Notes under the pieces: model-generated
Databases searched by the model: none
What the model was told of the DNA's origin: nothing
What the model saw: the letters and a program-made list of their open reading frames with translations, nothing else
Source of the DNA: Ricordea florida
Lineage: Eukaryota; Cnidaria; Anthozoa; Corallimorpharia; Ricordeidae
DNA: 64,000 bases
Reading direction: 5' to 3'
Assembly (NCBI GenBank): GCA_949710005.1
Contig: OX453276.1
Span: forward strand, 17,740,449-17,804,448
Shown here: positions 6,061 to 58,098 of the stretch, piece after piece
How the letters are laid out: every line of letters starts with the position of its first letter
Numbering within the stretch: the first letter of the stretch is position 1
Translations under genes and position numbers: made by a program

Positions 6061-8645
6061 AGTGGTTTAGATTTTGACCATTTTTGTCTCAAATTGGGTA
6101 TAGTTTTCAGTGGGCCGGGTACAACTTCACATGAATAATAGAGAAAGGGAAGTAACCAAACTATGTCATTCGAACTAAAATTTTACAAATTCTTGCCTTG
6201 GCCACCAATGCTAAGCTTAATTATGCTATAACAAAGCCAGTATAAAAAGTTGTAACCTAAAAGTACGTTTTTTCAAGTCTTGTATGAAACTGTTAAATAC
6301 CTATTTGATCTTCTGTGGCATGATAGTTTTTTTTTTTCCATTCCATCAATGGTGAACTATATTTCCATAATTGTGCAACTAAAATAGAAAATGAGAAAGT
6401 GAAACATTTCGTTATAAGGCAGGGAAAGAATGTATTGCAACACCCCTTCCTGAAAATCACTTCATACGTTTCATTATTACCAGTGACATTAAATGGAACT
6501 AAGGACTTTTTGCCTTTTTTAGCCCAGTGATTTATCTTATGACAGAATAAGTGACACCTCCAGGCAGTCACTGCAACATAAAAGTGCAAAGTAAATAGGG
6601 TAAGCTGCTGTTATTTGTTTACTGCCCTTGATCAGGTTAGGTTTCTCCCCAACTGAATTAACCAGAATAGTGGTACTTTTAATGGGGTAGACCAGTTCCA
6701 GCATTGTAATTAAAAATGATTGTTAATTTACAGACTTTAGTGCACTCAATTGTGGTACAAAATGCACTGGATATTTCGTTACAAAAACCACTGCCAGGGA
6801 TTTGTGCCTTACATAAATCTAAACTAAAAGACTGGCTTAATAAATAAGCCGACTTTGTCAGTGCAGAACATACCTCTAAGGCCATGTTCATGGCTTCATT
6901 CCTGCAGCAGATCTCAAGTATCAGACACACCTGCTCCAAGTAACGTGATTCCTGTCTCTATGAATAGTGTGAAGTCTTCTAACAACAGTGTGGAAGGCAA
7001 CCTCTATTTCTTGTCAGGCTTAAAATAATGATCAACCCGCCATGGGGTTTCAGTGTATGTATGTTTTGATTTTGTGTACTATTACACTCAGAACAAGTTT
7101 TGTTTTCTATTAATTCACTTTTTCTGGTCTGGTCATGTCACATCCTTTTTCTGGAAAAGAGTAGCAGACTGGCCTCGAGACAATCTCCCCTAATCCAATA
7201 AATACACTTTAAAAAATATCACTGCACTTGGCCTAAGACCGGAACCCCATTCAAAATATGCCCTTCAATTAAACCACATTTTCTTGTTAGCGCGGTACCA
7301 TATACGGCAAGCTAAACTTTGGAAAAAGCCACCAAATTTTACAGTTTTCTTACGTCTTGTAAAATCAAGACTTAAACTAGAGACAAAAGCGGGTGACACC
7401 AAAAAATGGATTCCTCTTGCAGTTGGTATACAAATTGCTATCTCCAGTCCCCCTGACCACCAAAATAATAGCTAATAATTTATGTGAAGATATGCTGTAA
7501 TCCCCTAAAATAATGTAACCATCAGAATTTAAGTACCTCATTTTGCTCCTACCTTTCTTCAATTTTCTGATGTTTTTTTTTTACTTTGTTGTGCTATTTT
7601 TCTTTTGCCTCTGTAATGCACTCTAGTAGTTGAATTGTAATGTATTTTGTTTACAAAAAATCAATTTTGTTTAAAAAGAAAAAAGTTTTGTTTTCTGCAC
7701 ACGTAGAGGTGGAGGATCTAAGCAAGGAAAAATTGCTCAAAGCTGGTAAGAGCATTTATCCCAAGACAGGGGATTTGCAAGATGCCTGAGATACTTAAGA
7801 GCGGTCGTCTGTAAATATCACCTTAGGTGTGTAAAATGAAAAAATTCAAAATCCTCAAACTTTGTCAGAATATAGGTCTTGGGCCTCTATTTAAAGAATA
7901 AAAGGTCTAAGGTTCATTAGATTTATATTTTTAATGCACGGTGAAAATTTAAATTTTATAGCTCGACAGGGGGATTCGAAAGCCGTTTCACCGCTGTTGT
8001 TTCAAAAATTCGCCTAAAATTATTAAATGCAGCAAATCAAATCACGGGAACTCCCTTGATAATGCAATTGTTGGGTCTTCATTTCAAGAGTTTGACCTTT
8101 GAATTCTATTACATTTTGAATATTTTACAGATTTTTAAACATTTAGCATTTGAAAGCGATTTTTCGTTGGTACAAAAACAATGAAGTTTCAAGGCTAATA
8201 TCTCCACTGATATACGGACCATGGCTATCAAAAGGTAATCGACCTTTAGTTCAATTCCTCCTCTTTGTGCACATGTAATAATATTTTGGGGCCACTCAAT
8301 AATTTTGATTTTACAGACCGAAACACATGTGCATTCATCATCGAAGAAATGACTGTCACGTGATAGGTCAACACATGAACAGTACCTTAAAAATATTTTT
8401 ACTCGCATAAAAGCGCTTGAAACTAAGTTATTAGCCAAGCAAGAGTTAAAAGAAACTAAGTGACTTACATTACATCCAGTTTATTTGTGGTCCTGCTCCA
8501 AATCTTGCAATGGCGGCCCGAAGAACACACCGTTACATGTTGCAAAGAATTTTGACTCTTCCTGTCGTCAGAGGATGTCCAGAATCTTATTCTATGGTAT
8601 ATAAACTAACTTTACCGAAGCTTTACAACAGGTTTACAAGAACAG
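6061..8645. other. Unassigned sequence
   Basis: AT-rich sequence with short ORFs (for example 6293-6589 and 6679-6939 on -) that I do not recognise and that lack family motifs. A stretch at 8512-8660 on + reads MAARRTHRYMLQRIL and onward, but it runs into the transposon end at 8646 and has no recognisable domain. No RNA gene or clear repeat boundary was seen. Confidence 0.5.
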
Positions 8646-8746
8646 AAGGGAAATTTGACCTCTAAACAAAGCGTTAGGTCAACGATCATCCGGATTTAAT
8701 GGAGTGTATGTCAACAACAAAGTTCCTTGCGTGACACACAGGAATC
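8646..8746 (+). repeat. Left TIR (101 bp) of unassigned transposon
   Basis: Begins AAGGGAAATTTGACCTC and is a perfect inverted match to 13809-13909. The transposase stop codon is only about 20 bp inside this repeat. Confidence 0.95.
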
Positions 8747-8767
8747 GCACACTTGCTTTGGAATTGT

Positions 8768-11700
8768 TTACATTGAACTTGAACAGCTACAAGATTTGAT
8801 CATATTATTTAACAATGATATGTAAGGAGCTTTTAAACGAGTCGTTATTTCAGAAATGTCTATGTGAAAATATTCGCAGATTTGTCTTAACAGGGAGACG
8901 CTTAATTTCTTCAAAGAGCTTTTAGCACTCAAGCTACAAAGGTTGTACGAGTCGTATACTACCGGGTGCGAAAGTTGGCACTCATTCAGGACGATAGAAC
9001 GCACATCAGTGTAGGCCTCCTGATCCTCGGCTGCAGTTCTCTCGTCATGGTTGCCTGGTTGACCTTTTCTTTCTTTTGACGATCTTCGGGAAAAGAACGA
9101 CTGAATCTGTTGGGGGGTTAGAAACTCTTGCAAAGTAAATCGCCTGTTGCCTTGCTCATCTTTGGCATAACGCATATCTCGACTCACTGCAGCAGCATCA
9201 AGTTTATGCCCACTCTCCTTTCCAATATTGAACTTTTCATTCAAGTATAACCTTTGCTTCTCATTGAAGCGCGTATTTGTTTTGGTGGTCTTAAGAGCCC
9301 ATCCTTGAGGTAGCATGTTTTCACTAGAGGCTGCTCGAGTGTCAGTGCTTTTCAGGACAGCCTGCTCACTAGCACCATGCAACAACTTCTCAGTGTAAAG
9401 AACTTTGGTCTTATCCAGAAGACGCTGTCTTTTAGGTCTCAAATCACACTTGCCATATCCCAGGTGATATTCAAGAGATGAATAGCGTTGATAATTCTTG
9501 ACGCATCCATCGACGGGGCAGGTAAACAGCTTTGGGGACTCTGGCTCAGAAGGGTCCTTGTCAACATCACTGTCATCCTTATTGCCCTTGTCCGATTTTG
9601 AGCTCCTTGACGGAATGATGTCTACGAAATCACCGTCAGAGAACTCACTGTTAAACGTTGTAATGTAAAAGCTTCCAGACACTGAAATAAAAACAAATGT
9701 ATTACAGTCATAATAATAATGTCAACGCAGTCTTGCTTATAGTGATGTTTATTGATTACACAACTGGTAAGGGATACCTGAGGAAAAGAAGGACAGGATA
9801 GAAAAAGCTTCAAACCACTTAGCTATTTTACAAGCACAAAAACAGGACATGACTAATAGACAGCTATTATTGCCTTGATATATTAGACAGACAATGGCTC
9901 TCGCCAGGTCATAAAGTGACCTAATGATTAGGAGCAAAAATTGCTCCTAAAAATTGCTTGTGTAGTTTATTTACCATTCAATTTCGCCCATGGTATGATC
10001 TTCCCCTTGCCGATCCCATATGCTTTCCAAGCGGTTATCTCCTTGTCACAAATAACAAAATTGTTGAGCGTACTTATGCCAACTATCTTGATGGTTTGCA
10101 ATGGCTTGATTTCTCGTCCATCTACGAGAACTACCCGTACACCTCGAACACCACCATTAGACAAGATAGCATCCTGTAGCTGTGCTGCGTTTACCACATC
10201 ATGACCTTCATTGATGTAGCGCCGAACATGGCTTTTGATTGTGGCAGCTTTTCGATCGCAAACGCCTTTCCCGCCTTGGGGATCACTGAAATCAACTCGG
10301 TTGACTTTTATTCCCGTTAATTCCTCCATAACGCAACAAGCTGCCAACATGGCGCCACTGTGATAGCAGCCGGCGTTATCTTGTCGATATGAGGCGGAGT
10401 TGATCATTGGGTTCTGTCTCTTCAGCTCAGTGAGGATGTGTTTCATGATCGGTACAACAACGTCAGTATCTTGAGTACAGTTTTCTACAATGTGTACAAA
10501 TACTTGGTGCTGTAATTTCCCGTTTGATGACCGCCTCACAGCAACACTGATATGCCAAGGTATACCTCTTTTACCGAACCAATCGGTCTGGGTCTCTCTG
10601 TATTTTTGCGGCAAGAACTTCATTGCCCAGTCTTGAGTAATCAAAACGGATTCTTCGCTTAGAGTGTCGAGGATGTCTGTACGTGGTTTGTCTTGTTGTA
10701 TAGAGCGAATCTGATGTTGTTTCCAAGCCTCTATTGCTGCTATTGACTGCTGACAGGTGAACATTACATCGTCGCGTTCGTCACTTGGAAGTTTCTCTGC
10801 GGTACTCTCAGCAAACGCTTTAATCGCAACAAGGGTAGAATTGAGATCTTGGCATGAAGAGCAAAGGTGATCATGAACGTGGCTGCATTTTGAAGAGAAA
10901 TCAGGTTGGTTTTTGTCGCTCAATGTGTGAACAGAACAGTGATCAGGAACGGTGGACGTATTAGAAACGTGCACCTGAAAAATCAAAGGGTTGATCAACA
11001 GTCAATTGCTGTGTTTTGTCATTAACAGTCATTATTGGGCATATAGTGTATGTAACAACGCTCGGCTGATTTCGCAAATATAGCATATTCAACATTCGTA
11101 ATTTTTGCTTTCTGCCAAAACTGGTAGCAATGGGTGTTGGTTCTCGCATTAATAATAGCTAATAAGAAGAAAGAAATACCTTGTAGTCAGTTTTGATATA
11201 CTGTTTTCCTGCCTTTAAGACTGCCTCACAAGAACTGATCCACTCTCTATCACATCCATAGGGTGCGAGTCTCGTCAGTATCCCTGCTAGGTCATCAAAC
11301 GCCTTACCCCCATCAGACGATATATAATCTAGTCCTTGTAGAGACTTCCGTACCGTTGCACTACAAACGGAGAGAATTCTTGACATGGTAGAGTTGCTGA
11401 AAGGCTTAATTTCACTTTCTTTGCAAAACTGTGTATACTGGGCCATAATTCTTTGTGGAATCATCGATCTAATGACGTTTGGACATTCCAGAACTTGACC
11501 ATTTGCTAAGTGGAGGTATCTTTGACCAAACGGGAGGTCTTGAATAACATCAGCACTGGTGATGAAAGATAGAAAATGATCAAGCTGACTTTCATCAACT
11601 CTCATCCGAGGACTTCTTTGTACTGGGACTGATGCACCACGCCCATACTTGAGAATGTGCAATCTTGCAAGTTTGAAACGATATTCGGTAACTCCAGGGA

Positions 11701-13494
11701 TAAATTTCTGGATCTCAGAGAAAGGAACTAGATCTCCAATTATTCCTAACACCTGTCTGCGAGTGCTCCAGGTAGTGGCATTTAGGAAAGTCTCCGCTAA
11801 GGCCTCAAGATATTTTCTGTTAGCTGACTGTGAGATTCCTAGGGACTTTTCGACACTTTGCAACGAATGAATAGCATCCCAAATACCACCAGCATCTCCA
11901 GGCGCAATAACTTCCAACGCAGACACAATTACGTTCGTTGCTTTATCAACACAATGTTTTTTACTGCGGCTGGTCAAATCTTCCCAGCGCTTTTTGGCCT
12001 GACCAATTGGCTCTGCACCACCACATGCATCTATGAATTCATTAAGTTTTTTCAGTCTCAGTCTATTATCAGCTGCATTTGTCGACTCATTGCTGCTGGA
12101 TCCTTCATCTGATAGAATAGCTGTAGTATCCACTGAAACGTCTTTGTTGATGTGATTATTGCTGCTTGAAGCTGTTATAGAATCAGTGGTGCTGCTTGCT
12201 TCGTCTGACACATTGGAATCTTTTGCAAAGGACATCTTACTAAGCAAATCTCCCAGGATATCAACAGCGCTTTCGTCCTCGTGAATCTCCTAAAACAAAA
12301 CGCCGATACTATAAGCAAACCTGAATGAATAAATATTTATGGAGCTGCAACCAACCAACCCACCCAACTCACTGCTTTACTAGTGCATGAGGGAATCGAA
12401 CAGCAAGACTAAAATAAATGAAAGTATAAACAAATGAAAAATGAAGGTTACTATATATACGCACTTGGATTATTTCGGCGTTCTCAAATGTAGCTGCTTG
12501 TACATTTTGGGCATCCTGCCTTACATCCACCGTCAGAGCCGTATTTACCTGATCATCAGCTCTCAGGGAATAGGGGGAAGGGAGGAGATTTGGGGGAAGG
12601 GTGGGAGGGAGGGAAGTTATCAACGTATCGGAGCGCGAATCCATCTCTGCTTTTAGCTGTGTACGACACCGTCTACATATGGCTGAAGGAAAAAAAGGAA
12701 ACAGACCATATAGTAAATGCATAATGCAAGATAAAAGTGAACATGATTAAGACCATCGGTGTTGCCAGCATAATTGACTTCACAGGAAATTTATCTGACT
12801 GGTCATATTTAGACAAAGGAAACAAGGTTGTCCTTACAAGCAAGGAAATAAAATAACTAAAATATCTGGATAAAATATCAAGTGGGATACTAACGCGAGC
12901 CAACAGGAATAAAGCACTTTGTAAGTTTGTATAGTTCCTCAGACTGAGTAGATGTTATACCACGGTCCCCTTTATATTGTTTGTACTTGTGATTGCACCA
13001 TCCAACAGGACTCAGGCACATCCTCTTGCAAGTGCGCCATCTCGTACCATACATGTCCCGATGATGTGGACATACGGTAATGTTTAGATTGACTGAGGTG
13101 ACTTCAAATAAACCTTGGAAAGGAAATGTATTTTGATCTGAATATCCGCACAATAAAGCGCGGCATTCTTCACTCGCAATCAAACACACAAAATCGCAAG
13201 TTTACTGATGATAAGTGCTAAATTATACTAATTCCATCAAATAATACTAAACGTTGCACACTTTCAGTTCTTATACCAAACTAATCCGTTTTGTATGTTG
13301 GCATTCTTACCTGCTCGAACTAATAGTAGTTGTGCCTCAGTCTTTAGATTTCTGTCTCTTACATTCAATAAATTGAGGTGCCCTTTGATCTCGCGTTGAC
13401 AATCTTCAATTGCCAGACACGACTGGTCTTCTGGATAGTCTCTACTTGACCCACACTGACCGCCAACAAACCGCGAGAACCCACGAGAAGCCAT
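8768..13494 (-). CDS. Six-exon transposase-like gene with zinc fingers, about 1,240 aa, family not assigned
   Basis: Exons read on - as 13494-13311, 13204-12895, 12682-12465, 12289-11180, 10974-9975 and 9681-8768. All five introns are short (106-293 bp) and GT..AG. Exon 1 starts MASRGFSRF. Exons 2-3 form a Cys/His-rich module (CPHHRD, CKRMC, WCNHK, ICRRC). Exon 4 is Ser/Thr-rich and then helical. Exon 5 has RNase-H-like acidic motifs ITQDWAMKF, YRQDNAGCYH and FSDPQGGKGVCDRKAA, candidate catalytic D residues. Exon 6 has a C2H2 finger (CPVDGCVKNYQRYSSLEYHLGYGKC with variant spacing). Junctions 2/3 to 5/6 keep frame. Junction 1/2 does not: the exon lengths leave one extra base, so a frameshift near 13,174 or another acceptor is possible. 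Its place inside perfect TIRs argues that it is the transposase. Transposase function is inferred. Confidence 0.75.
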
Positions 13495-13808
13495 CTGAAC
13501 ATTACATCTTTAGCTAAGTGACTAAGAAGCAAATCTACAGAACTGTAAGACTGATGACACGGATTACAACTTAACAGAACTGTGACTCGGTGTGAACTGC
13601 ACGTCTCCACGTGCACAGTGCGGTTTTCAGGTTTCAAGTACACGGTCGCTAGGTACTCAGGTTTCGAGTACACTTATCTAATAAAAGGTTTTCTTCAAGA
13701 TTAAAATATATTTTCAAAGCGATAATATAATAAAAAAGAAAGGATTTATCAAAGAAAAATAAACATTTGTAAACCAAATACAAATATGACTTTATTGACA
13801 AAGTGTAG

Positions 13809-13909
13809 GATTCCTGTGTGTCACGCAAGGAACTTTGTTGTTGACATACACTCCATTAAATCCGGATGATCGTTGACCTAACGCTTTGTTTAGAGGTCAA
13901 ATTTCCCTT
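13809..13909 (-). repeat. Right TIR (101 bp) of unassigned transposon
   Basis: Perfect inverted partner of 8646-8746. It lies about 315 bp upstream of the transposase start codon, so the promoter is probably in or near this end (inference). Confidence 0.95.
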
Positions 13910-13913
13910 ATAT

Positions 13914-15836
13914 GCCAACAGCATATAATGAGGAACTTCATCAGCAAAAATCGTCCAAGGAAAATATGAGAAGATTTCATAAAGCATCAAAATTTACAAT
14001 TTATCAGTGCCATGTCTGTCATGAAGCCTGGCCTTTGAAAACAAAACCAAAGAATTCTGCAAATTACATTTGCTCTTGATGTGTGTGACAAAAGTGTTCC
14101 CAAAAAATTTTCAGCCAATAACTCTACGATACCTTCTCCAGTTCCTAAGGAGTTACAAGGCTTGACACAATTTGAAGAAATGCTCATTGCAAGAGCATTT
14201 CCTGTTATGCATGTATACAAAAAACCAAGGGGTGGTCAAAGAGCATATAAATGCCATATGCTTACTTTGCCTCAGGATGTACAACAACTTGCAGAAATAC
14301 TTCCTAGGTGTCCAAAAGATTTGCCTGTGATTATTTTTACTGTTAATGGTAAAGATAACAATTTTTCTTTGGATTTTGTAGTGAGGCGCAAAAAAGTGGA
14401 AGAGGCACTTTATTGCTTAACTGGTAAAAATGCAAATGAGGAATCAAACAATCCTTTGTACAAAAATGTGAAGATAGATAGGGAAACCCTTGCTAATTTA
14501 CCAGAAAATGACATCCTTTCAGATGTTATGAGAGTAGAGGGTGAAGAAAAATCAAATGAAAATGAAGATGTGGATATTGACACTGGACCAGTTCATTTTG
14601 AAGATGATGAGAAAGTTTATAATGCAGAAACTGAAATGAATAGCTTTGTTCCAACCAACATTGACTCCAAAAATGAAAAAGAAATTATTAATGAACAATT
14701 TCTTCATGTTCCACAATCATTCAATTGGGATATTGGTGATGAGCCATTGAATGAATTTAGTTGTCAATTCTTAGCATCAATGGCTTTTCCAACTTTATTT
14801 CCGGATGGAAAAGGTGGTCCAACCAATAATGCAGTTTTTTCTGATACTTTGACCAATACATCTCAGTCAATTGCAGCTAAACTTCAGAAAAAATAGATGG
14901 AAAATGGGTCTATAGATTTGCATCACATCCCAGATATGCTTACTGGGCCTACAATATTTTATATCGAAGAAGAATTCTTCAACAGGGAAACTTTTTTCTC
15001 ACGTAAAACCCATCAGAAGCTAATCTTACACTTAGTGACTTGAAAGAAATGTTGCACAATCAGTCATATAATTCACTCATGTCAAAAGTATTGTATTACG
15101 CTAAAAATGTTTCTGGAACTAATACTTGTTGAAATTGTGCAAAAGATGATTTAAAGTCAATCTTAACTCAAGTTGGAGCTCCAACAATTTTCTGGACTTT
15201 ATCCTGTGCTGACTTTCACTGGCCTGAATTTCATAACCTCTTTAGCAACAATGGTGAAATATTAGATTCAGAAAGACGAAAAAATGTCATTTATAACCCA
15301 CATCTGCTTGACTGGTTTTTTACTGAACGCACAGAGCAGTTTGTGAAATATTGGCTTAAAAATACACTTGGTGCAAAATGGTACTGGTTTAGGTATGAAT
15401 ATGCTGTACAGTGTGGTTCAATTCATTGCCATGGAGTAGCAAAACGTAAGTCTGATCCCAATTTGTGTGAGCTATCTCAAGTAGCACTCCAAGGGCATCT
15501 TGCTGCTCAGTCACTTTCCAAACACCAATTGTCACCTGAAATATTGCTGAAGAAGCAACAGAAGGTTTCACAAGGACTTGAAGCAGAAAGACCTATTTGC
15601 AACTATGTAGATTTTCTTATGTCAACTAAAAATCCCTGTAATGCTGATAATTGGGTGAAACCTTCAGTTCATCCTTGTAAAAGGCAGTTTGAGGAAATCC
15701 AAAGCAATGAATGGGATAAAGATTATGAAGACCTGTTGAATTCAGTACAAAGGCATACACAATGTTCTACCGCATACTGTTTACGTAGCAGAGGTCAAGA
15801 TAACAAAGTTTCTTGTAGGTTTAATTTCCCTAAATA
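13914..15836 (+). pseudogene. Helitron protein, N-terminal (DUF6570-like) and Rep-upstream region, broken
   Basis: From 13,914 the frame reads RRFHKASKFTIYQCHVCHEAW with paired cysteines, then from 14,081 a long open stretch (271 codons) with IPSPVPKELQGLTQFEEML and ARAFPVMHVYKKPRGGQRA, typical of the DUF6570-type region of Helitron proteins. FPTLFPDGKGGPTNN follows near 14,790. A stop at about 14,894 and frame changes break the next part, which resumes at 15,343-15,837 (HCHGVAKRKSDPN, STAYCLRS, CRFNFPK). The family protein is one continuous chain, so this is a pseudogene. A retroelement fragment begins right at the CRFNFP motif. Confidence 0.82.
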
Positions 15837-29734: not shown

Positions 29735-29761
29735 TTAACCCTTTCACTCCCAAGAGTGACT

Positions 29762-29806
<45 letters not shown>

Positions 29807-29836
29807 ATGGAGACCCCTTGGGAGTGAAAGGGTTAA
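29735..29836. mobile_element. 102-bp MITE, copy A
   Basis: The ends TTAACCCTTTCACTCCCAAG and CTTGGGAGTGAAAGGGTTAA are perfect inverted repeats of 20 bp. The interior is nearly identical to the neighbour at 29,849-29,950. Confidence 0.92.
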
Positions 29837-29848
29837 AAACTATCTCCC

Positions 29849-29950
29849 TTAACCCTTTCACTCCCAAGAGTGACTTTATAGATTTTACTCTGTCGAACGC
29901 CAGACGATTTTACTCGTCAAATGGAGACCCCTTGGGAGTGAAAGGGTTAA
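29849..29950. mobile_element. 102-bp MITE, copy B
   Basis: Same 20-bp TIRs and same orientation as copy A, 12 bp away. I see one or two base differences in the interior (TGTCGAACG versus TGTCTAACG). Confidence 0.92.
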
Positions 29951-40802: not shown

Positions 40803-43077
40803 CTGTAAAAACTCGTGTATAAGTCGCACTCGTATATAAGCCGCACCCCCAACTTTAGAGCTTGATTTTGAAAAAAAAGAAAACTCCTAAAAAGCGCTGA
40901 GCAAAAGAAAGTGATTACTTGTACATTGTAAGCTTGGTCAAATCTGATGCTGTGTATTTGCTGCAAGCTAAATAACTCTTGAAATACCTTTTACAAGGTA
41001 TTCTTCAATGGAATTTCCGATATCCTCCTAAAGAGAGGCTCTTTTGACAAGATGTTGCCTTTATTGCTAAAGGCGATAGTGGAAAACGGTGTAATTCAAA
41101 CGGAAATTGGAGCAAAACAATCTCTGCCCGATCGATGCAAAATGATTGCATTTAAAGAGAGAGTCTGGACACAAGAGAAGTACACACGCAAATAAATGGA
41201 CTTGAAGATTATATTTTACAATACTAAATGATACATTTGTATCTGAAAGAGAAACGGGTACATGTGTTATCGATATTAAAAAGTTAACCTATCCTTACTT
41301 TTATGCAAAAACTATTTACATGTGCAAAATTTGAAGTTCGTCTTATCAATCTTTGTCCAAAGTGAACATGTTCTATCGTTCAGCTCAGTTAGAAACCATA
41401 AAAGTCCTCACTGTCACTTTCACCGAAAATGGCCTCATAGAATTCATGTGCAATTTCTGCTTGCTGTCGCTCGAAGTCATCTGCATAGTACAACTCTTCA
41501 TCGCCGTCCAGCTCGTCGATGTCTACGAATGGATCCGAGTCAGACTCCTCTTCCCAGATTTCTTCATCTTCTGTACCGTCCATTGCGTTGGTGATACAGC
41601 ACTTGCAAAACGACTTTGCAATCATTTCAGTTGGTGTGTCATTCCAGAGGCATCACTGATCCATCTGCAGATCTCATCAAGCTTGACTTTCCGAATATGA
41701 CCTCCAGCAGTAAAGGTGTGCTCTCCAGCCAACATCCTTTCTTGCCACTTTGCCCTCATGCGGTCCTTGAAGGGTCTGTTGATAGATGCATCCAATGGCT
41801 GAAGCATGCTGATCAAGCCACCAGGAATCACTACGGGCTCCGTATTTAGAGACCTCAAGGTACAGTGAATTGGTTTGGATAAGTGGGCTCAGAACGAATC
41901 CCACACAAGCATGGACTTTTGCTTGCTGATGCTACCAACTTTACTCCAAGCAGTCTGTAACCAGTCCTGCACGAGTGCTTCGTCCTTCCAGCCCTTTGCC
42001 TGGCACCTGACAACAACCTCTTTGGGAAAGTTCAAGTTCTTAAGAAGTGTTTTCCGTTTAAACACAACGTAAGGTGGGAGGTTTGTTCCATCTCTGAGGT
42101 AGGTGAGCATAACAGTAAACCTATCCTTCTCATGACCTGTGCTTAGAAGTGGGACGCTCTTCACTCCTTTCTCTGCAACGGTACTGTTCGTTACAATGTC
42201 AAACGTAAGTGGGGTCTGGTCTGCATTACCAATGTATTTAAGATCAAAGTCATGCTCCTTCCGTTTAGCCATCACATAGCGCTGAAATTTGATCAACTTC
42301 TCTTCATAGTCTTCGGGAAGTTTCTGAGCAATCGTGGTCCGCCTTCTGATGGAGAAGCCACATTGGTCCATGAAATGATAACACCAGCATTTAGATGCCT
42401 TAAATTGTTCCAGTCCTAGCCTTTGCGCCACTGATTTTGCTTTAAGGCATATGACATTGGTGGATACGCCAGTGCCAGCGTTGCATTTCTCGTTTATCCA
42501 TGCAGCGACTTCTTTTTCAAGTTCAGGAAATGCAGCAGATCGACCACATAGAGCTCGCTTGTTTTGCGGTGTTTTCAGCAGCTTTTCACGTTGCAAGTGC
42601 CAGGGACGTACACAGCTTTCATCTATACTGAACTGCTTTCCAGCGGCACGATTTCCTTTTTCTATAGCATATGCAACAACTCGAAGTTTAAAAGATGCAG
42701 TGTACGATGCTCTGGGAGCATTGTAAGCAGCTTTGTGGAGGAATGGAGATTCCATGCCAGCTAGAGTTTAGCTGCACAAAGGAAGTATAAATGAATCGCT
42801 TGAAAGAACTACTTGCGAAGAAGATTCAGGTTTAAAACCTGAAGAGACAAACGTCTCCTTTAGGAGCCACCACTTCTATCAAGAGCAATGATCAACAACA
42901 GCAACAGGTTTCAGAATGTTGAATGTTTATTTACTTACGTTTTTAAGTGCTATATCTGACCCCTAACTAGGTAATTAGCCCCCTCTGAAAGCAATGGTCT
43001 CGTATATAAGCCGCACCCGCCATTTTGAGCCCAAAATTTCAGCAAAAAGGTGCGGCTTATACACAAGTTTTTATGGG
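40803..43077 (-). mobile_element. Tigger (pogo/Tc1-mariner) DNA transposon, 2,275 bp
   Basis: The inverted ends CTGTAAAAACTCGTGTATAA and CCCATAAAAACTTGTGTATA are each flanked by TA (40,801-40,802 and 43,078-43,079), the pogo target. A second motif, TCGTATATAAGCCGCACCC, occurs just inside both ends (about 40,830-40,848 and 43,003-43,020). One transposase ORF lies between. The left flank is BEL and the right flank is a THAP gene, so the insertion lies at or near a junction of older elements. Confidence 0.88.
41389..42755 (-). pseudogene. Tigger transposase, one nonsense codon and one frameshift
   Basis: From 42,755 on -: two HTH domains in the N-terminal 150 residues (SYTASFKLRVVAYAIEKGNR, FPELEKEVAAWINEKCNAGT), then a DDE_1 core with D in GNADQTPLTFD, D in SMLVWDSF and D in LQPLDASINRPFK. 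This is the DDD-like triad of the pogo group. A TGA follows WDSF at about 41,890, where family members have Arg, consistent with a CpG-type CGA to TGA change. A 1-base frameshift near 41,635 separates the acidic C-terminus (41,625-41,389, rich in D/E). Otherwise the coding region is continuous, so inactivation looks recent. Confidence 0.85.
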
Positions 43078-43082
43078 TATTC

Positions 43083-44440
43083 ATTCCTTTCCCAAAACCT
43101 TCGCGAGACATGCCAAAGTGCAAGCGTTGGCTAGTGGCTTGTTCGCGTGAATTTTTAACAGAGAAAAACATAACAAGAAGCACTAATATTTGTGCTCTTC
43201 ACTGGCCCGGTGAAAAAGGTCCAACAGCCGAATTTCCCGATCCACTGAAGGCAAATCTAAGACCAGAGCAACGAAGTCGAGCACATTCTCCAAAGAGAAA
43301 AGCACCGAAAGAAAGAGAAAATTCAGCGTCAAAAACTACGAGGAACAATTTTTTAAAGATAATACAGTTTCTGATGATCATGGTCAGGAGCCACAAGAAG
43401 TTGAACCAACAGTTGACAAAAGTTGATCAAGGCTCTCAGACTATATATTCAAGATATGAGTTGTCTGCAAAGGTCGAAAGTATGATTTTGAAAAACGACA
43501 TCTCTATAACGCAGTTACAGGGTCCTGCAATAGTGAGTACTTTATCTTATGAAAATATCGTGCAAGATGTAGCTCTCATGAAACACTTCACCAGCCGCAA
43601 GCCTTCCCAGTTTGAAGTTTTGCATGATTTTCTTGACAATGTTTGCCCTTAAGAGGCAATCAACAACTGGAAAAGCAAAGATTGCTCAGCAACAGAGAAC
43701 GCAAGTACTGGCCCGAAAACTGATTTTTCATCAAGAGAAAAATTTTTCATTTGCCTTCTGAGACTGAAGAGCGGTTTTACTCTCAAAACTATTGCAGCCT
43801 TTCTTAGTACACCAAACAGGAAAATTAACTGCTCCCATACTAGAAAGATTTTTACAACATATATTCAGTTCATGTATGTAATTTTAAGAGGCATGCAAAA
43901 GTTTATGTTTCCAGAGAGAGCCCAATTTAGCAGGTTTCTCCCTAAGATATTTAAAACCATTAAAAACATACGCTGTATTGTTGATTGCATGGAATTTAGT
44001 GGAGAATGCTCCAGGAATTTTGCCAGGCAAGGAAACACTTTCTCTTCCTACAAGCACACCAACACATTTAAGTGTCTCTTTGCTGTAACCCCCAGTGGTG
44101 GAGAATGTTTTATTTCTGATTTGTTCGAGGATGATATTGATGATCTTCACATCTTTGGCAGATTGTGGTTTCACTGTGCAGGATCTCTTAAATCCTCTCC
44201 AAGTGCAGTTAAAAATTCCATCATTTTTGAAAGGTAGAAAAAGTCTTAGTGCTGCAGAGGAATTGGAAACACATCGCATTGCAAAAGCTAGGATTCACGT
44301 GGAGCATTTCAAATCGAACTACCTGCAGAGGCCTTTGGGTATTGCCATTATAAAAACAAGGCTGTGCATGAGGTCATCAAGTTATTGCACCGTCGATGTT
44401 GGATGCGAGAGATGGGTTCTCTGCTTATGTTAGGGTTTCT
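43083..44440 (+). pseudogene. THAP-domain DDE (IS5/Harbinger-related) transposase, broken
   Basis: The first part (to 43,652) begins inside a THAP zinc-finger domain: FPKPSRDMPKCKRWLVACSR, then NICALHW, with the N-terminal Cys pair missing. A coiled linker follows. From about 43,700 a DDE-type region reads [20 protein letters not shown], then [20 protein letters not shown] and [17 protein letters not shown]. Around 44,160 it shifts frame to [14 protein letters not shown] and SLSAAEELETHRIAKARIHV. Stops at 43,650 and 44,237 and frame changes make it a pseudogene. The missing 5' end coincides with the Tigger insertion boundary. Confidence 0.8.
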
Positions 44441-45334: not shown

Positions 45335-45730
45335 ACATCTAAGACATCTGACATTTGCACTATATCCAAAGAAAGGTAGGAAGGCCACTCAGCATTATAA
45401 AAAACTTGCTTTAGAAAATTGGATGCACTGAATGCGTTGTAAAAGAAAATCAGGCAAAGGATTAAGCATTGTATCACAATAAAACAATTTGGAAAAAACA
45501 AGAGATTCTACTAAATGCTTGTGAAGTTTAAAGTCTGAAATATTTTATCTTCCTTAGAATACCGGTACTTAATGCGCCATAACAAGATTTGCACAGCAAT
45601 ATTATATGCTCATTCCAACTAAGATGTTTATAAAAAACAACGCCTAGTAGTTTGCTGGCATTAACATATTCTAAATTTTTGTCTAACACTGAGATAGTGG
45701 GATGATTCTAGTCTAAACTATGGGCTCGGA
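45335..45730 (-). pseudogene. Non-LTR RT C-terminal fragment (copy 1)
   Basis: Minus-strand sequence matches the better-preserved 54,791-55,330 copy: NAEWPSYLSLDIVQ, then an internal deletion, then frames corresponding to the region of KILGFVFHKHLSWNEHI. It has several stops. It is an old non-LTR remnant, already present before the duplication. Confidence 0.7.
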
Positions 45731-45959
45731 ACATCTGGCTTGCGCTGACCAGCGTGCCTTTGGTCTTTTTGGAATTAAAAGCAAGATGGGAGTTGCTTGA
45801 CCAAGTGCTGAGGGAATCTAAATTTAATACCAAATTTAGCTACTTTTTAAAATTTCAAATCCTTAGAACTAAGCATTTTGTCATATGACATGACATTCAT
45901 GCAACCCTGCAAAACCAGAAAGTTGACAGGCAATAAAAAATGACCAGTGTGAAGTATAA

Positions 45960-47430
45960 AAAAACTGGTATATAAGCATTATAAACATTTTCTGTGTTCC
46001 TTTTGACATAGAGTCTATCGCTCAAGCAAAGTGCAGCACAAAGGCTGATGTCACCGTCAATAGCTGGTCCTCTTCAGCTTGCCTCCATCATAACAAACTT
46101 TGCATCTCCTTTCTAATCTTTTCCCCTTCACATTGGTTGGGAAAAAGTCAGGCAAATGTCTTTCAACTTGTCTAGCCAATAAAAAGGCATTGGAGGGCTT
46201 TCCATCCCTTTCTTCCCGAAGAAAAATTGCGAATCAGCTGTTTACCAAGGTCCATCTGGAACAGCTTCTGAGTCTGTTTTGCAAGGTGTGTAGATTCTTG
46301 CTCAAGTACAAAGCTATTGTAAATGGATCTATCAATTAGATCATAGAAGACTCTTCTCCACCATTTCTTCCTAGCCACTATGATGGGGTTGTAAGACTTC
46401 ATCTGGTCATTTTTATCGACACCCCCCTTTTATGTATTTATGTGAGATGACTGACTCAATGGTGCCAATCTGTTGTTTGTGGTTCACCTCAGGAAGTTGC
46501 TGTGCAGGGATTGGTTGTAGGTGCCACTTGCATGGACCCTTCATTTCCCACACCACATCACCCCTCTTCATTATTTTGATCGCTGCTTTGTCATAGAGGC
46601 ATGCAGGGAACTCTTTTTGGCCAGGTCACAAAGTCCCATGACAGAGTATTGTGTTGAGATACAATTCCTCAATAAGCCTGCACAAGGTAAAAAAAAATGT
46701 TGCAGAAAATTGCATACTTTTATGTGTTGTAAGATGACTGACTCAATGGTGCCATTCTGTTGTTTGTGGTTCACCTGAGGAAGTTGCTGTGCAGGGGCTT
46801 GGGTGTAGGTGCCACTTGCATGGACCCTTCATTTCCCACACCACATCACTCCTCTTCATTATTTTGATCGCTGCTTTGTCATAGAGGCATGCAGGGAACT
46901 CTTTTTGGCCAGGTCACAAAGTCCAATGACAGGGTATTGAGTTGAGATACAATTCCTCAATAAGCCTCTACAAGGTAAAAAAAACATGTTGGAGAAAATT
47001 GCATACCAGTGGCCTTGAACATGTTGACAAAGCTTGGTGACCACTGAGCATCCCAAGCCATGTTGCACTCCTTGTGGGGATTTATCTGTGTAAATGTCAA
47101 ATTCACACAAGTAACAATTGGTGCTTTCAGCTCTGCACCACATCTTGATCCCCCTCTTTCTGGGCCCCAGAGGCATGTACTGCTTTAGGGAAGTCCTTCC
47201 CTTGTACTTTATCATTGCCTCATGCTGATGGTGGGGATTGTAATTTAATTGAAAGTTAGTGTTCAGGGCACTGAGACATTCTCTTACCTTGAAAAGCTGT
47301 GGCATTTTGCTGTTGTCACAAAGGTGGAGGTTGTTCCAGATCTCCCATAACCTGTTTCTAGCCGTTTTCCTACCCACGTTTTCCCACAAAAAATGTGGCA
47401 ATTCTCACATGGTCAAAAACGAGACAATCT
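45960..47430 (-). pseudogene. piggyBac transposase remnant A
   Basis: From 47,401 on -: LWEIWNNLHLCDNSKMPQLF, NPHHQHEAMIKYKGRTSLKQ, YMPLGPRKRGIKMWCRAEST, LCEFDIYTDKSPQGVQHGLG: the central DDE_Tnp_1_7 region of piggyBac. Then comes a duplicated segment. Nearer the C-terminus KWWRRVFYDLIDRSIYNSFV (46,370-46,310) and the Cys-rich tail GKRLERRCKVCYDGGKLKRT (about 46,120-46,060) follow. Many stops and frame changes. The N-terminal domain is missing here but present in the paralogous copy at 57.0-57.5 kb. Confidence 0.82.
46433..47006. repeat. 287-bp tandem duplication inside piggyBac remnant A
   Basis: GATGACTGACTCAATGGTGC starts at 46,446 and, after 287 bp, at 46,733. Both units end with AATAAGCCT...GGTAAAAAAA and a GCATAC. 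The paralogous piggyBac at 56.35-56.61 kb has only one unit, so this duplication postdates the segmental duplication or was lost from copy 2. Confidence 0.88.
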
Positions 47431-47946
47431 CACCCAAGAAAAAGGATAAGTGACCAGAAGTATGCATTTTTGAAATCCTCAATAGTTAAGCTTTACAATG
47501 TAGTAATGTTTTTTTTTCACAACAGACTGTTGCCATGGAAATCAGTGACCTATCAATCACTTAATGAGATTAAAATTTATTTGGAAAATTGTAGTGCATA
47601 ACTAAAACTTCTACAATATTCAGATTTCTTCATTTAACTCTCAGAATTACATTTCAAAATCGCTACAATACATTGCATTTTCCAAATTCAAAATAGACTT
47701 GACTTATTGCATTAATATGGAGTACAGGTGTATGTCAAAGATGGATGAAATCTCCATGGTTACAGACAAAATTTGACCTGAATGCCATTCCTTACTTAGT
47801 TGGAGCAACTACAATACAAAGCAACACAGAAGGGATTCGAAAGGTCCTTGAGAGCTCCTATAGTTGTTTTAACACTTTTAGGCTTCACTTTCAGCTCAAC
47901 TCTTATATGGTTGCCATGGAAAGCACAAATGAATAACAAAAATAGC

Positions 47947-48868
47947 TCATTTTTGTGTTTTGGCTCTTTTTCTGCCACTCTTGTCCCTGGTGTTAGAGGG
48001 ATCATCAAATTTAAACTGTTGCATGGTGTGGTAATGATGAAAGCAAGGTTCTATGCACATATGTGTCTCGCACACAGCACACTCGTCGAGTGTTTGCCCT
48101 ACTTGGGTGTGGACAATGCATGCTTCCTTTGCATCTCGTTTTACGAGGTGGTGAAAATCATGATTGAAACAAATTTCTGCTGGAAGAGGGGTTTGAAGGC
48201 CTTCCCCTTTCCTTGACATAGGTTCTTCCACCAATCAATTGCTTTGATAATAATGTACAGAATGTAAGCTGTGTGCATTTGGTATTTTGATGGCTGGGGG
48301 GAGCTTGCATTGAAATAAAACCATTCAGACAGCACTGTTCAAGTCCATGAAAGAAGAGTGCTAAGTACCAAGTACAAGTTTTGAAATGTTTTTTGTAAGA
48401 AGCAATTCTTTGATCAGCTAGGTCAACACCACCCATTGATGCATTGTACAATCTGATGCCCACAGGACAGCCAAATTCTTTCGCTTCCATGCCCCATCAT
48501 CATGCTCCCTTTGAAGTTCACCATTGTCTCGTCAATTGAAACCTCTCTAGCTGGAATTTAATTCTGCCTTAACTGTCATCATAGTTAATCAAGAACACTA
48601 CAAATTTTGAAAAGGCGATCACGTTGAGCAGGATCTTGTGGTATCTCACTTTCATTGTCAACAAAATCTCTAAAACGCAATATGTTCATAAATCTGTCGC
48701 GGGACATAATATTTCCAAAGTTACAGTTACCTGATCTTTTTCCCAGTGGGAGTGAAGAGAAGGCTTTTGCACAATCCCCATTGCAAAATAAAGTCCAAGC
48801 CATGTATGCAACTCATTGATGGTTAGTTTGATGCGTTTTTTTTTTAGCGTAGACAGATCTGGGGACAA
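47947..48868 (-). pseudogene. piggyBac transposase remnant B (different family from A)
   Basis: On -: LTINELHTWLGLYFAMGIVQ (48,830s), then after a frameshift FGNIMSRDRFMNILRFRDFV (48,720-48,660). After a large deletion, RLYNASMGGVDLADQRIASY (48,455-48,400), and a Cys/His-rich C-terminus (CAVCETHMCIEPCFHHYHT, about 48,090-48,030). Order and motifs are those of piggyBac, but sequence differs from remnants A and C. The middle of the catalytic domain is absent. Confidence 0.8.
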
Positions 48869-49113
48869 AAATGAAGAATCTGCTGATCCAAAATCTGCTG
48901 GTTCTTGTTATGGCTGATATGAAGGCTATATTGGGCTGCAAAGGGGGAAAAAAAGGAAAAAAAATGGTTAAGGTGGCTACAAAATAAAATGTTTTTATGA
49001 AAGAGTACCCTTAACAGTAATATATATAATATGCAATAGTAATATATGCAAATTAAAATTATAATTTCTAGGCTCTCGCAAAGTTTCACAATATATTTTA
49101 CAAATGTTTCCAA

Positions 49114-52100
49114 GTGATGCGGTCAGCGGTCATGGCAAACGGTCGTGTGATTTCTTGGTCTTCCATTTTGTTGTTGATTGCAAGGATTACTGTGCTCATA
49201 TGTCTACTAAAAAGCTCTTTAAATAGTAGAACATGCGAAATTGTTGGTAAGGATGATTCAGTCACTCACTTTTCACTATTTTCGCCTTGGAACAGTCGCC
49301 TTTCACAAGCTGGTCAAATGACGAAGCAGACACGTGGTCGGAAATTTCTTTCCGCTCATTTTACCCTAATTCACAGTCCTGCTTTAAGTTTTTGGAGCTT
49401 ATAGTGAGCGGAGACATCTGCCCTAATCCCGGTCCAACGGCTACTGAAAATATTCCAGCCAAGTGTGCCATATGCAAGAGGACAGTTGCGAAGACTCATC
49501 GTGCTGTAAACTGCGACTCTTGTTCAAAATGGTGCCACATAAAATGTGGAGGTGTTTCTGTAAATGAGTATCGCAGACTGCAAATGGAAGATGAAATCTC
49601 ATGGATATGCCCTATTTGCACAGTACCTAGTGATCCTGAGCTACTCCACAGTTTTGTTAATGACTCTACTCTGGAAGTTCTACATACACACGACCTTCAG
49701 GTTTACAATGATCTGGAGCCATTAATTAACACGCAAGGTCTAAAGGTCGCCCACTTAAATGTTAATGGATTGACGAACAAAATGTCAGAAATCAGATTCC
49801 TTCTCCAGGAAACGAGGTTTGACATCTTAGGGTTAACTAAAACACACTTGAACAACAAAATTGAAGATGACCAGATATCTGTTGATGGATACAAATTGGT
49901 ACGTAAAGACAGAAAATGTGGAAATTCCTGGGGTGGTTGTGTAATGTATTACAAGAATTGTCTGAATGTCATTGAAAGGGATGATATCTGCTCAAAAAGT
50001 GACCTTGAGCAAGTGTGGATTGATCTTATGCTTGTATCTCAACGACTTTTACTAGGAACTTTCTACAGACCTCCAACTGACAATCAATTCTTTGACAAGT
50101 TCCATGAAATTTTAGATGATTTGTGGCTAAAAAGATCTAACATTATGATTATGGGTGACTTCAACTCTGACATTAAGTCTAGTGTGGGAAAACGCTTGTT
50201 GAAAGTTACCAGAAATGTTGGCTTAGAAAATGTCATTAAAGAACCTACAAGAACTACAGAGTCTTCAAACACAATCATAGACCTAATCTTCACTTCTCAT
50301 AAATCCAAGGTGACAGTGGCAGGCTGTTATGCCCCAGGCATTTCTGATCACCATCTTGTGTATGCTGTAGTTAATTTGCGGAGACAAAAATCAAGTCCAG
50401 TGATCAAAGAAGTGTCAGATTTTAAGAACCTTAATTGCGACAAACTCAGACATGATCTCAGTACGGCACCTTGGAGTGTCTGTGAGATATTTGATGACAT
50501 AGATGATGTTGCTTGGGCATGGGAGTATTTATATAAGGTCGTTATGATTGATCATTTGTAAACTAGAAAAGTAAAAGTGCGTACTAATGGTTTGAAGTGG
50601 ATGAATGGCAACATCAGGAAGGCGATGAATAGAAGATATGCCCTGCTAAGAAGAGCTCAAAGTAATCCAAGTGATCCAGAAGCTTGGAAACTGTACCAAC
50701 AACAACGAAATCACGAGACTAAGATCATGAGAGAAGCCGAAGCAGAATATTGGAATGATAAGTTTAACAATGCAAACAGCTCAAGTGATTTCTGGAGGGT
50801 GGTACGTGAAATGCAAGACAAGTCAAAGAGTAGTGTGGGGGCAATCAAAAATGAGGATGGAAACATCATAACCAATGCTAAAGATAAGGCAGAAAGCTTA
50901 AACCATTTCTTTTCTAAAGTTGGTGAAAGACTTACATGTGTAACATAACAGTGTAAATGAACATCACCATATTTACCAAGTCACTCCTACTGCCGAACCA
51001 TTACAACTAAATGCTCATAAGATCAAAAGAGGTATTGACAAAAGAGTTAAGCCTGGAAAAGGGTGTGGTCCTGACAACATAACTGTAAGAGGACTCAAAC
51101 TAGGGGTGATGCAGTTACTGTCGGTCTATCTTATGTTATGGGAGAAAGTCTAAAAACTTCAAAGTATCCTTCCCAATGGAAAATGAGTAAAGTAAAAGCT
51201 GTACCTAAAAGGGGAAATAGTTCCGAAAGAAGTAATTTCAGACCCATTTCCCTGTTGAGCATCCTGAGCAAAGTGTACGAGAGTATTATAGGAGATCATA
51301 TTGACTGTCATTTTGTAAACAAAGGACTGTCCAGCGAAAACCAATGGGGTTTCAAACCAAATAGATCTACAGAACTTCTAATGCTGCATCTGACCGAAGT
51401 GTGGAGACGAGCTGGATAGAAATAGAATTGTGGGTGTTCTGTTTATCAACTTTAAAAAGGCATTTGATTCCATTTGTCATAAAACAATGGCTCTTAAACT
51501 CTAAGCCTGTGGAATTTCAGGAAATGTGTATAATTTGATTGTTGATTATTTAGCTGGGAGAAAGCAGTTTGTTGAGATTGAGGGTGAAAGATCTAGCGAA
51601 GCGGAAGTCAAATTCATGTGTACCTCAAGGCTTAGTACTTGGGCCTAGGCTTTTTAGTATTTATGTCAACGATCTTCCACAGGTGCCTAGCTGTGGAAGG
51701 ATGGAAATGTTTGCTGACGACACAACTTTATATTGTATTGGCGATTCCATTGATGAAGTCTGTTCCAAGATCCAAACTTCAATAACTGAAATAGCTAAGT
51801 GGTGTAATAGGAACGTTGTGACTATTCATCCTGATTATGCTTCTTATCCGTAAAAATTTCATTGGTCCTCGAAGACCAATTAAGCTGGGTGATCACGTAA
51901 TTAGTTTTGTTAATAAGTCGCACTGTCTTGGGTTCACGATTGATAATAAGTTAAGCTGGGGATGCCATATAAAAGATCTTACAACATCTATGACTAACAA
52001 GGTGAAGCTATTACGTAGGTTTAAAAGCCTTTCTTTCCAAATATTAGAACCAATTTATTTTAAGGGTATTCTTCCGAGTGTGACCTATGGAATAAGTGTA

Positions 52101-54499: not shown

Positions 54500-55330
54500 T
54501 AATGGTTTATTACAACATTCACTCAGTGGCTCTTCCTCTGTAAAAACTATACTACTCTACATGTACACTAAATAGAAAAGATGAAGTCATAACAATAATA
54601 ATAATATGCAGTATAATATATAATAATAAGTAACTGGTGTTTATCGAGTTCAAATGTCCCTTGAAATGGCAAAGTGTTTTTTCAGTAACCTGACAAAGGT
54701 TGAGAATTCTTTACATTGTCTTATTGAATTATCTAATCTTATCTAATTCATTGAATAGTTTTGCAGACATATCTTGGAAAGTTCCCTTTTCTAGAGGAGT
54801 AGCCAGTCTAATTGTGTTACTAGTTCTAAGACATCGACATTTTGCACTATATCTAAAGAAAGGTAGGAAGGCCACTCAGCATTATATATTGCCTTATCTA
54901 CAAGTTTTAAGTGATTAAATTGTCTCTGTTGCTTTGTGGGAAGCCAGCCTAGTTTATAGATAACATTAGTGTCATTTATATATTTTCCAGTAGCAAACGT
55001 TGCTGCAGAAAATTGGATGCGCTGAATGTGTTGTAAAAGAAAATCAGGCAAAGAATTAAGCATTGTATCACCATAAAACAATTTGTAAAGAACAAGAGAT
55101 TCTACTGAATGCTCACGAAGTTTAAAATCTGCAAAATGTTTTATCTTCCTCAGAATACCGGTACTTAATGTGCCATAACAAGATTTGCACAGCAATATTA
55201 TATGTTCGTTCCAACTAAGATGTTTATGAAAAACGAAGCCTAGTATTTTGCTGCGATTAACATATTCTAAATTTTTGTCTAACACTGAGAAAGTGGGATG
55301 ATTCTTGTGTAAACTACGGGCTCGGAACAT
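54500..55330 (-). pseudogene. Non-LTR RT C-terminal fragment (copy 2)
   Basis: An open frame of 179 codons ends at 54,791: MFRARSLHKNHPTFSVLDKN, KILGFVFHKHLSWNEHIILL, IQRIQFSAATFATGKYINDT, KLGWLPTKQQRQFNHLKLVD. This is the region downstream of a non-LTR RT core. Related sequence continues to about 54,660. The 3' end near 54,500 is a TAATAAACC followed by ATCT repeats. The paralogue at 45,335-45,730 is shorter by about 110 bp. Confidence 0.78.
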
Positions 55331-55339
55331 CTGGCTTGT

Positions 55340-55735
55340 GCTGAACAGAAAACGTTGGTTTTTTAGTCGGGCAACCGACTATAGGTTTACACTCGAGTTT
55401 CATCGCAAATCGCAGTCACGTGCAATGGGGAATGCCGCAGACACGTAATACGGGCGCAACCTTTCTACGATTTTGCGAATGTCTCACTACATTCAAACCA
55501 GAAATCAAACGAGTTACCAGTGAACAGAAAATGTGGACAGAGTTACAGAAGAGCATAATTTGCTGATACAGACAAGGTGCCTCACGATGAAACTCGAGGA
55601 AACGACAACAAAGGTGCCACGTTGGAAAACAGGACCTTGGTACCCTTAGCATTTCTTTTTTGGACCACTCCGCACCATAAGTGGTCAACACTCATAACAG
55701 CACGTCTACTTGTTGCCCAACTTACGATCTTAGAT
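55340..55735. other. Copy-2-specific insertion of unknown type
   Basis: Copy 1 passes directly from GCTTGCGCTGACCAG to TTTTTGGAATTAAAAGCAAG. In copy 2 about 400 bp lie in between. GTCGGGCAACCGAC near the left end and GTTGCCCAAC near the right hint at weak inverted ends. No TSD or coding function seen. Confidence 0.45.
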
Positions 55736-55989
55736 CATCTTGTTTGGAATTTAAAGCAAGGTGGGAGTCGCTCGACCAAGTGCTGAGGGAATTTAAATTG
55801 AATATCAAATTTAGCTACTTCTTAAAATTTCAAATCCTTAGAACTTGGCATTTTGTCATGTGACATGACATGTTATGCAACCCAGAAAAACCAGAAAGTT
55901 GACAGGCAATAAAAAATGACCAGTGTAAAGTATTAAAACTGGTATATAAACATAAACATTTTCTGTGTTCCTTTTGACATGGTAAAGAG

Positions 55990-57476
55990 TCTACCAGTGA
56001 TGGTTAAGTCTAAAGCAAAGTGCAGCACAAAGGCTGATGTCACAGTCAATAGCTGGTCCTCTTCAGCTTACCTCCATCATAACAAACTTTGCATCTCCTT
56101 TCTAATCTTTTCCCCTTCACATTGGTTGGGAGAAAGTCAGGGAAATGTCTTTCAACATGTCTAACCAATAAATGCTCATTGGAGGGCTTTCCATGCTTTC
56201 TTCATGAAGAAAAATGCCTTACCAAGGTCCATCTGGAACAGCTTCTGGGTCTGTTGTGCATGGATCTATCAATAAGATCAATAAGATCATAGAAGACTCT
56301 GGGACAGGGTTGTAAGACTTCATCTGGTCATTTTTATCCACACCACTCTTTTACGTGTCGTTAGACGACTGACTCAATGGTGCCATTCCATTGTTTGTGG
56401 TTCACCTCAGGAAATTGCTGTGCAGGGGCTTGGGTGTAGGTGCCACTTGCATGGACTGTTCATTATTTTGATTACTGCTTTGTCATAGAGGCATGCAGGG
56501 AACTCTTTTTGGCCTGGTCACAAAGTCCCATGACAGTATTTTGTTGAGATACAATTCCTCAGTAAGCCTGAACGAGGTAAAAAAAATGTTGCAGAAAATT
56601 GCATACCAGTGACCTTGAACATGTTGACAAAGTTTGGTGACCACTGAGAATCCCAAGCCATGTTGCACTCTTTGTGGGGATTTACCTGTGTAAATGTCAA
56701 ATTCACCCAAGTAACTATTGGTGCTGTCAGCTCTTCGCCACATCTTTATTCCCCCTCTTTATGGGCCCCAGAGGCATGTACTGCTTTAGGGAAGTCCTTC
56801 CCTTGTACTTTATCATTGCCTCATGCACAGCTTGCTGATGGTGGGGATTAGTGTTCAGGGCATTAAGACATTCTCTTACCTTGAAAAGCTGTGGCATTTT
56901 GCTGTTGTCACAAAGGTGGAGGTTGTTCCAGATCTCCCACAACGTGTTCCTAGGCGTTACTTTTGCAAATTCTTCCCCCAACACTCAGTCAGATGACCAG
57001 TAACCTTGCAAACTTGGGAGCCTTTGAATACTCATGCAAATGAGAAGGCCCAAAAATGCCCTAAGTTCTTCAAGAGGAATCTCTTTCCAGCTATGTACAT
57101 CTTTGTTTCTAGCTTTTAATGACTGACAGGCATAGTGATTTGTCTCTCTTAGGATATTTTCCAACATGCGATTATCAAAAAAAGAAAACAGCATAACATT
57201 TACTTGCCCAAATACTTGCAAAAAGCTGGCAATGTCAATGTCACTTCTCGCACTACTCCATTCAAACTCTTTTGGACTTACATTGCTTGGTCTTCCTCTG
57301 CTACTATCCCTATCTCCATTTTCCTCTATATCAAGAGTGGCAGGGTCTACATATTTGTCATCTTCATCTTCAGGGAGCAGATCGTTTTGTTCGTCATAAT
57401 CTTCATGAAGCCCTTTGAAGTCAGTGTTCACTCCATCTTCGGGGATATCAAAGTTATTGTGCAATGTTTCTGCCAC
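55990..57476 (-). pseudogene. piggyBac transposase remnant C (paralogue of A, with N-terminal domain)
   Basis: The start MAETLHNNFDIPEDGVNTDF is followed by an acidic region and the piggyBac N-terminal domain (LQVFGQVNVMLFSFFDNRML, ETNHYACQSLKARN, EELRAFLGLLICMSIQRLPS, GYWSSD) to 56,985. After a stop the central part continues at 56,984-56,727 (TLWEIWNNLHLCDNSKMPQL, HEAMIKYKGRTSLKQYMPLG), then 56,743-56,483 in another frame, and a Cys-rich tail near 56,130-56,040. Stops and frame changes mean it is not functional. It is better preserved at its N-terminus than remnant A. Confidence 0.82.
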
Positions 57477-58098
57477 AGTCTAGCGACAATTAGGGCTTGC
57501 CATGATTCAATGACCTTTAAAATTTCGCTGGATAATTGACAGTTAAGGAAAGTTAAAAAAATCTCACTAAAGCAACCTAAAGGTGTCTAACTTTACGAAA
57601 GTCAAAGTAAACAGGACGGGGCATGCGTTTTTTAGCCTAGACAGATCTGGGGACTAAAAATGGAGAATCCACCGATCCAAAATCTGCTGTTTGTTGTTAT
57701 GGCTGATATATTGGCCATATTGGGCCGCAAAGGGTTAAGGTAAAAAATGGCTCAGATGGCTACAAAATAAAATGCTTTTATGAAAGAGTACCCTTAACAG
57801 TAATATATATTTTATATGTTATATAGCGTTTGAAAGCTTATGAAGTTCTGACTATTTTTTGATTTTAGAAAAGTGATAAATAATTAATATCCATCTCCAT
57901 GGTAACTAATGATTACACATAGTTTATGCACATATGCAAATTAAAATTATAATTTCTAGGCTCTCGGAAAGTTCCACAATATGTCTTAGAAATGTTTGCA
58001 ACTGACGTATACATTATCAAAAAGGATATTTTATGAGCTAATCATTTTGCAAACGTTTACCAATAGTTTTAATTCCACACAAAATAATAATTATGACT

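Follow-up and report, generated by a model that had tools for sequence, protein, structure and literature searches.

According to excerpts of the sources cited here and below, elements of the Sola superfamily encode transposases with three aspartates (Asp-Asp-Asp, DDD), make 4-bp target-site duplications and mostly measure 2-9 kb, with terminal inverted repeats (TIRs) of 11-1124 bp (PMC10741241); curated bivalve Sola1 elements have a mean length of 5,445 bp (PMC10294476), and the duplications of slime mould Sola2 are AT-rich (AWWT; PMC3627910). The hAT, P, MuDR, Kolobok and Dada superfamilies have in common a C/DxxH motif after the second Asp, and the Kolobok duplication is TTAA (PMC9587614); Dada elements are without TIRs and insert in small RNA genes (PMC3706591), and PHIS elements make either no duplication or one of 1-4 bp (PMC10045372). 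Here we describe a TIR-bounded element in a 64,000-nucleotide stretch of the genome of the corallimorpharian Ricordea florida (assembly GCA_949710005.1, contig OX453276.1, positions 17,740,449 to 17,804,448, forward strand; the whole stretch is referred to hereafter as the window). This is very probably an intact, autonomous animal class II transposon, encoding a 1,214-residue DDD transposase and moving by cut and paste; it is a transposon of a known general kind, whose family is mostly unnamed in public annotation.

The protein shares with those of hAT, P, MuDR, Kolobok and Dada the status of a DDE/D (Asp-Asp-Glu/Asp) transposase; however, the window protein has no C/DxxH motif in the interval from the second acidic residue to the third, and such a motif occurs in one of the 72 alignment rows that hold both Asp columns. 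A Kolobok-type TTAA duplication is not seen at this one copy. The element differs from Dada in having TIRs of 101 bp, and the window holds no tRNA or Rfam match at gathering scores (the feature that Dada would target).

Inverted repeats enclosing a six-exon gene

The element and its ends are as follows.
8646..13909, unstranded: whole transposon, 5,264 bp, bounded by the TIRs
8646..8746, plus strand: first TIR, 101 bp, beginning AAGGGAAATTTGACC
13809..13909, minus strand: second TIR, identical to the first

The initial annotation had proposed perfect 101-bp TIRs, and the two repeats are indeed identical over this length (98% when extended to 109 bp). Since the longest exact inverted repeat among 100 single-base shuffles of positions 8400-14200 reaches 18 bp at most, TIRs of 101 bp are not a product of chance. 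The element ends read AAGGG...CCCTT, and each TIR contains an inverted pair, TTGACCT/AGGTCAA (at TIR bases 10 and 31), that is a plausible, putative transposase binding site. Outside the element, the left flank (8640-8645) closes on AACAG, and the right flank (13910-13921) reads ATATGCC and then AACAG.

Between the TIRs lies a single minus-strand gene, as befits a TIR DNA transposon, the reading frame of which has no internal stop across its six exons.
13311..13494, minus strand: exon 1, with the ATG at 13494-13492 (start concordant with relatives)
12895..13113, minus strand: exon 2, remainder of the N-terminal Cys/His region (boundaries from alignment to relatives)
12465..12682, minus strand: exon 3, end of the Cys/His region, then linker
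11180..12289, minus strand: exon 4, mostly helical region upstream of the catalytic domain
9975..10974, minus strand: exon 5, cluster of conserved His and Cys residues plus the catalytic RNase H domain
8768..9681, minus strand: exon 6, C2H2-like finger, putatively homeodomain-like helical segments, C-terminal tail and stop

The five predicted introns (197, 212, 175, 205 and 293 bp) all read as GT-AG, in agreement with the canonical introns and six exons of the initial annotation; its figure of about 1,240 codons gives way to a product of 1,214 residues. A first splice model of the present analysis put exon 2 at 13167-12961 (or with a start at 13137 or 13113), and alignment to relatives displaced it to 13113-12895, an assignment that recovers conserved segments near LARAG, CP.HR and IPVGSPIC. 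A G-rich run lies on the plus strand at 12568-12612, within exon 3. The open gene and identical TIRs make the copy look young, judged by sequence, and together they bear out the description of a multi-exon TIR transposon that is autonomous and apparently young; it has probably been mobile recently.

A predicted RNase H fold with three conserved aspartates

The predicted model of the catalytic domain, encoded by exon 5, allows an RNase H fold to be assigned with confidence; the acidic residues fall where strands 1 and 4 end and where the last core helix begins, the arrangement expected of a DDE/D enzyme.
10138..10692, minus strand: RNase H-like core in the predicted model (exon 5 residues 95-279)
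10630..10632, minus strand: candidate catalytic Asp 1, Asp 692 (ITQDW / DWAMK)
10378..10380, minus strand: candidate catalytic Asp 2, Asp 776 (QDNAGCYH)
10255..10257, minus strand: candidate catalytic Asp 3, Asp 817 (CDRKAA)
9437..9520, minus strand: C2H2-like zinc finger, its start at residue 965 (CPVDGC) and its end approximate

A test for this fold had been suggested by the initial annotation and gave a positive result in the model. The three acidic motifs named there are all present; among their acidic residues, the Asp of FSDPQ (at 806, preceding CDRKAA) is variable, being D in 60, E in 13 and another residue in two of the 75 ungapped alignment rows. The third Asp conserved in the family is that of CDRKAA. 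The model matches the retroviral integrase catalytic core at 12% identity, but the flanking domains differ and the third acidic residue is here Asp. In integrases this residue is Glu.

Outside the catalytic core, the anticipated C-terminal C2H2 finger is borne out by the family profile, which at position 729 matches solved zinc fingers (best E 1.4e-5), although the Pfam zf-C2H2 model scores the family consensus at 17.6 bits, under its cut-off of 25.2. Helical segments of exon 6 may be homeodomain-like, although they gave no fold match. The exon 4 region is helical in the predicted model of a relative from Oculina (P0006), and 2 of 19 family members have weak RFX-like Pfam matches there; this region may bind DNA. 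Searches with full-length models returned mainly the catalytic core, and the absence of other domains from those lists is not evidence.

Taken as a cut-and-paste enzyme, the protein would use the zinc-binding and helical regions that flank the catalytic domain to bind the 101-bp inverted repeats, and Asp692, Asp776 and Asp817 of the RNase H domain would hold two metal ions. This domain would then cleave the element at its ends and link these to a new target, a movement that would not be replicative.

Relatives in at least five animal phyla

The first homologue search (run, as was the Pfam scan of the single protein, with a 1,210-residue splice version) returned 86 proteins that are 31-59% identical; a profile search, which scored the 7,994 candidates with the most words in common, returned 126 (120 of them listed), partly overlapping the 86. 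Named hosts among the 86 are anthozoans, Branchiostoma, Antedon, bivalves, a limpet and bdelloid rotifers, and many other relatives are metagenomic; by these names the family spans at least five animal phyla (Cnidaria, Chordata, Echinodermata, Mollusca and Rotifera). Actinostola contributes 12 of the 86 and Oculina eight, and the family is therefore multi-copy. A precomputed Pfam domain is missing in 81 of the 86, the other five carrying reverse-transcriptase or unrelated domains.

Four near-full-length homologues, all uncharacterized proteins, come from different species and are likened to the window protein by protein alone: P0001 (Nematostella; 46% identical over residues 1-1186), P0002 (Exaiptasia; 50% over 285-1211, best local alignment), P0006 (Oculina; 41% over 1-1211) and P0014 (Branchiostoma; 37% over 6-1211). 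The motifs and the order of the parts are common to all four, while the P0001 gene model is missing a segment past the first Asp.

The catalytic alignment comprises 78 rows (P0025, P0037, P0074, P0076, P0078, P0082, P0084, P0085 and P0086 being omitted as partial, fused or of odd length), of which 73 entered a midpoint-rooted FastTree phylogeny and five were too short. The window protein groups with two proteins of Nematostella (support 0.96). The clade around them (support 0.99) has twelve rows: besides the window protein there is one from a metagenome, and the ten that carry a species name are all anthozoan, a placement that suggests an anthozoan host. Elsewhere in the tree, at least two more lineages hold anthozoan copies. 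In viral contigs the protein pattern gave seven stretches, none of them related, and the TIR pattern gave none; in prokaryote contigs the protein pattern gave six stretches, again none related, and five bacterial records matched an 18-base TIR pattern, by estimate near the chance number.

Profile searches for a known class

The absence of a confident superfamily match, claimed initially, is upheld: every transposase model of Pfam and NCBIfam stayed under its cut-off with the protein, 19 members or the family consensus (for NCBIfam, with the catalytic consensus only), and hence the strong hidden Markov model match that would have overturned this claim was not found in either library. The single protein gave three Pfam matches (E 0.15-0.25). 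The 19 members matched 26 families, 25 of them listed, and among the matches listed the best were zf-C2H2 (0.0053), DUF4886 (0.015) and CENP-B dimerisation (0.02, one member). With NCBIfam the catalytic consensus matched IS481 at E 0.003, with 17.1 bits versus a cut-off of 224. No transposase among PDB sequences was found at cut-off; one search gave four matches at E 0.2 or worse, and a second gave 39, nearly all zinc fingers, with one U-box protein. The same Pfam library matches 6 of 10 other open reading frames in the window, including pogo/Tc5-like, Harbinger-like, piggyBac-like, Helitron and non-LTR (non-long-terminal-repeat) ones; DDE_1, DDE_Tnp_4 and DDE_Tnp_1_7 (the pogo/Tc5-, Harbinger- and piggyBac-like models, respectively), all found elsewhere in the window, are not among the matches listed for the protein, the 19 members or the family consensus.

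Alternative readings

Several observations weigh against an intact cut-and-paste transposon. Foldseek gave weak matches with the catalytic model (the top one a herpesvirus terminase nuclease, E 2.3e-4) and none at E 0.001 or better with a full-length relative, and the integrase match rests on VIA-align because Foldseek by itself gave weak matches. A viral structure library returned weak matches to RNase H, terminase and others. No target-site duplication is present at the flanks of this one copy (...GAACAG on the left, ATATGC... on the right), and blastn found no second copy in the 64-kb window: besides the element itself and its TIRs, matches are at most 41 bp long (E 0.28 or worse), and the first 20 TIR bases are resembled on the minus strand at 54662 and 15832 with 4-5 mismatches, by estimate near chance. 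The missing duplication could mean that the copy is damaged or recombinant, its ends deriving from different insertions or its left end having lost bases; AACAG on both sides, as though seven terminal bases had gone from the left end, would fit such a loss. We consider this unlikely, in that the TIRs are identical and the gene fully open, a 5-mer shared across about a dozen bases carries little weight, and some superfamilies do without a duplication, as excerpts on PHIS describe (none or 1-4 bp; PMC10045372).

Three further readings concern class; they are not mutually exclusive and are not rivals of the mechanism. Membership of the Sola superfamily (Sola1, 2 or 3), or of a lineage within it, is the most plausible named home and stands at a little less than an even chance: DDD, element size and TIR length all fall within the ranges given in excerpts (PMC10741241, PMC10294476), and the right-flank ATAT fits AWWT (PMC3627910), but the left flank reads ACAG, such that this copy has no 4-bp duplication, and the comparison drew on published features of Sola elements. 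That the element is a distant lineage of the DUF7869-bearing group (whose named members are insect) is improbable. DUF7869 is the top Pfam match of the catalytic consensus (E 0.042) and weakly matches 4 of the 19 members, and hhalign lines up the three Asp of one family with those of the other, in similar motif contexts; the profile similarity is nevertheless not significant (E 0.11-0.13, hhalign probability about 0.5%), 5 of 20 column-shuffled controls outscored the real pair, and PF25273 gives the family consensus 13.9 bits, under its cut-off of 26. Precomputed PF25273 labels on part of the matches confirm the identity of the proteins gathered for this comparison, and 55 of 120 listed proteins were aligned. 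It is equally doubtful that the element belongs to a superfamily so far undescribed, which would comprise DDD transposases with animal relatives in at least five phyla, marked by DWAMKFLP / SDNAGCYH / GGKGxCDRKAA, an N-terminal Cys/His region and, toward the C-terminus, a C2H2-like finger with homeodomain-like helices after it. In its favor are the lack of a transposase model over cut-off and a full-text literature search (most subscription journals and Repbase lying outside its scope) in which no paper contained three family motif strings, two DUF7869-like ones or the term 'DUF7869'; nor is the family described in the titles or opening lines of abstracts among the papers listed on transposon superfamilies and Sola. 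Against it, members are present in Nematostella and Branchiostoma, the transposons of which have long been catalogued, and the profile searches covered Pfam and NCBIfam, which, to our knowledge, do not span every eukaryotic superfamily. The 'undescribed system' of the initial annotation is not established by these results, the enzyme being of ordinary DDD type and its relatives numerous.

Genomic neighborhood

Helitron-like coding pieces (DUF6570, Helitron_like_N) occupy 14039-15834 on the plus strand, a short way past the right end of the element. Elsewhere in the window are transposase pieces of pogo/Tc5-like (41892-42767, minus), Harbinger-like (43653-44234, plus) and piggyBac-like (56988-57479, minus) type, and a long, open non-LTR retrotransposon reading frame (59098-62574, minus; 1,159 residues, endonuclease and reverse transcriptase). 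Two similar blocks, 45338-49117 and 54825-58005, share orientation and are 80-95% identical in pieces, and 29735-29950 holds a pair of 102-bp copies, 12 bp apart and 99% identical.

Significance

With its TIRs, open gene and conserved triad, the element is most readily understood as an autonomous DDD transposon. Relatives stand as 'uncharacterized' or 'hypothetical' entries in several animal gene catalogues, the annotation of which a transposase label would clean. The open copy with perfect TIRs is a candidate active transposon and a possible genetic tool; if no named superfamily turns out to contain the family, it would merit a Pfam model and a name of its own.
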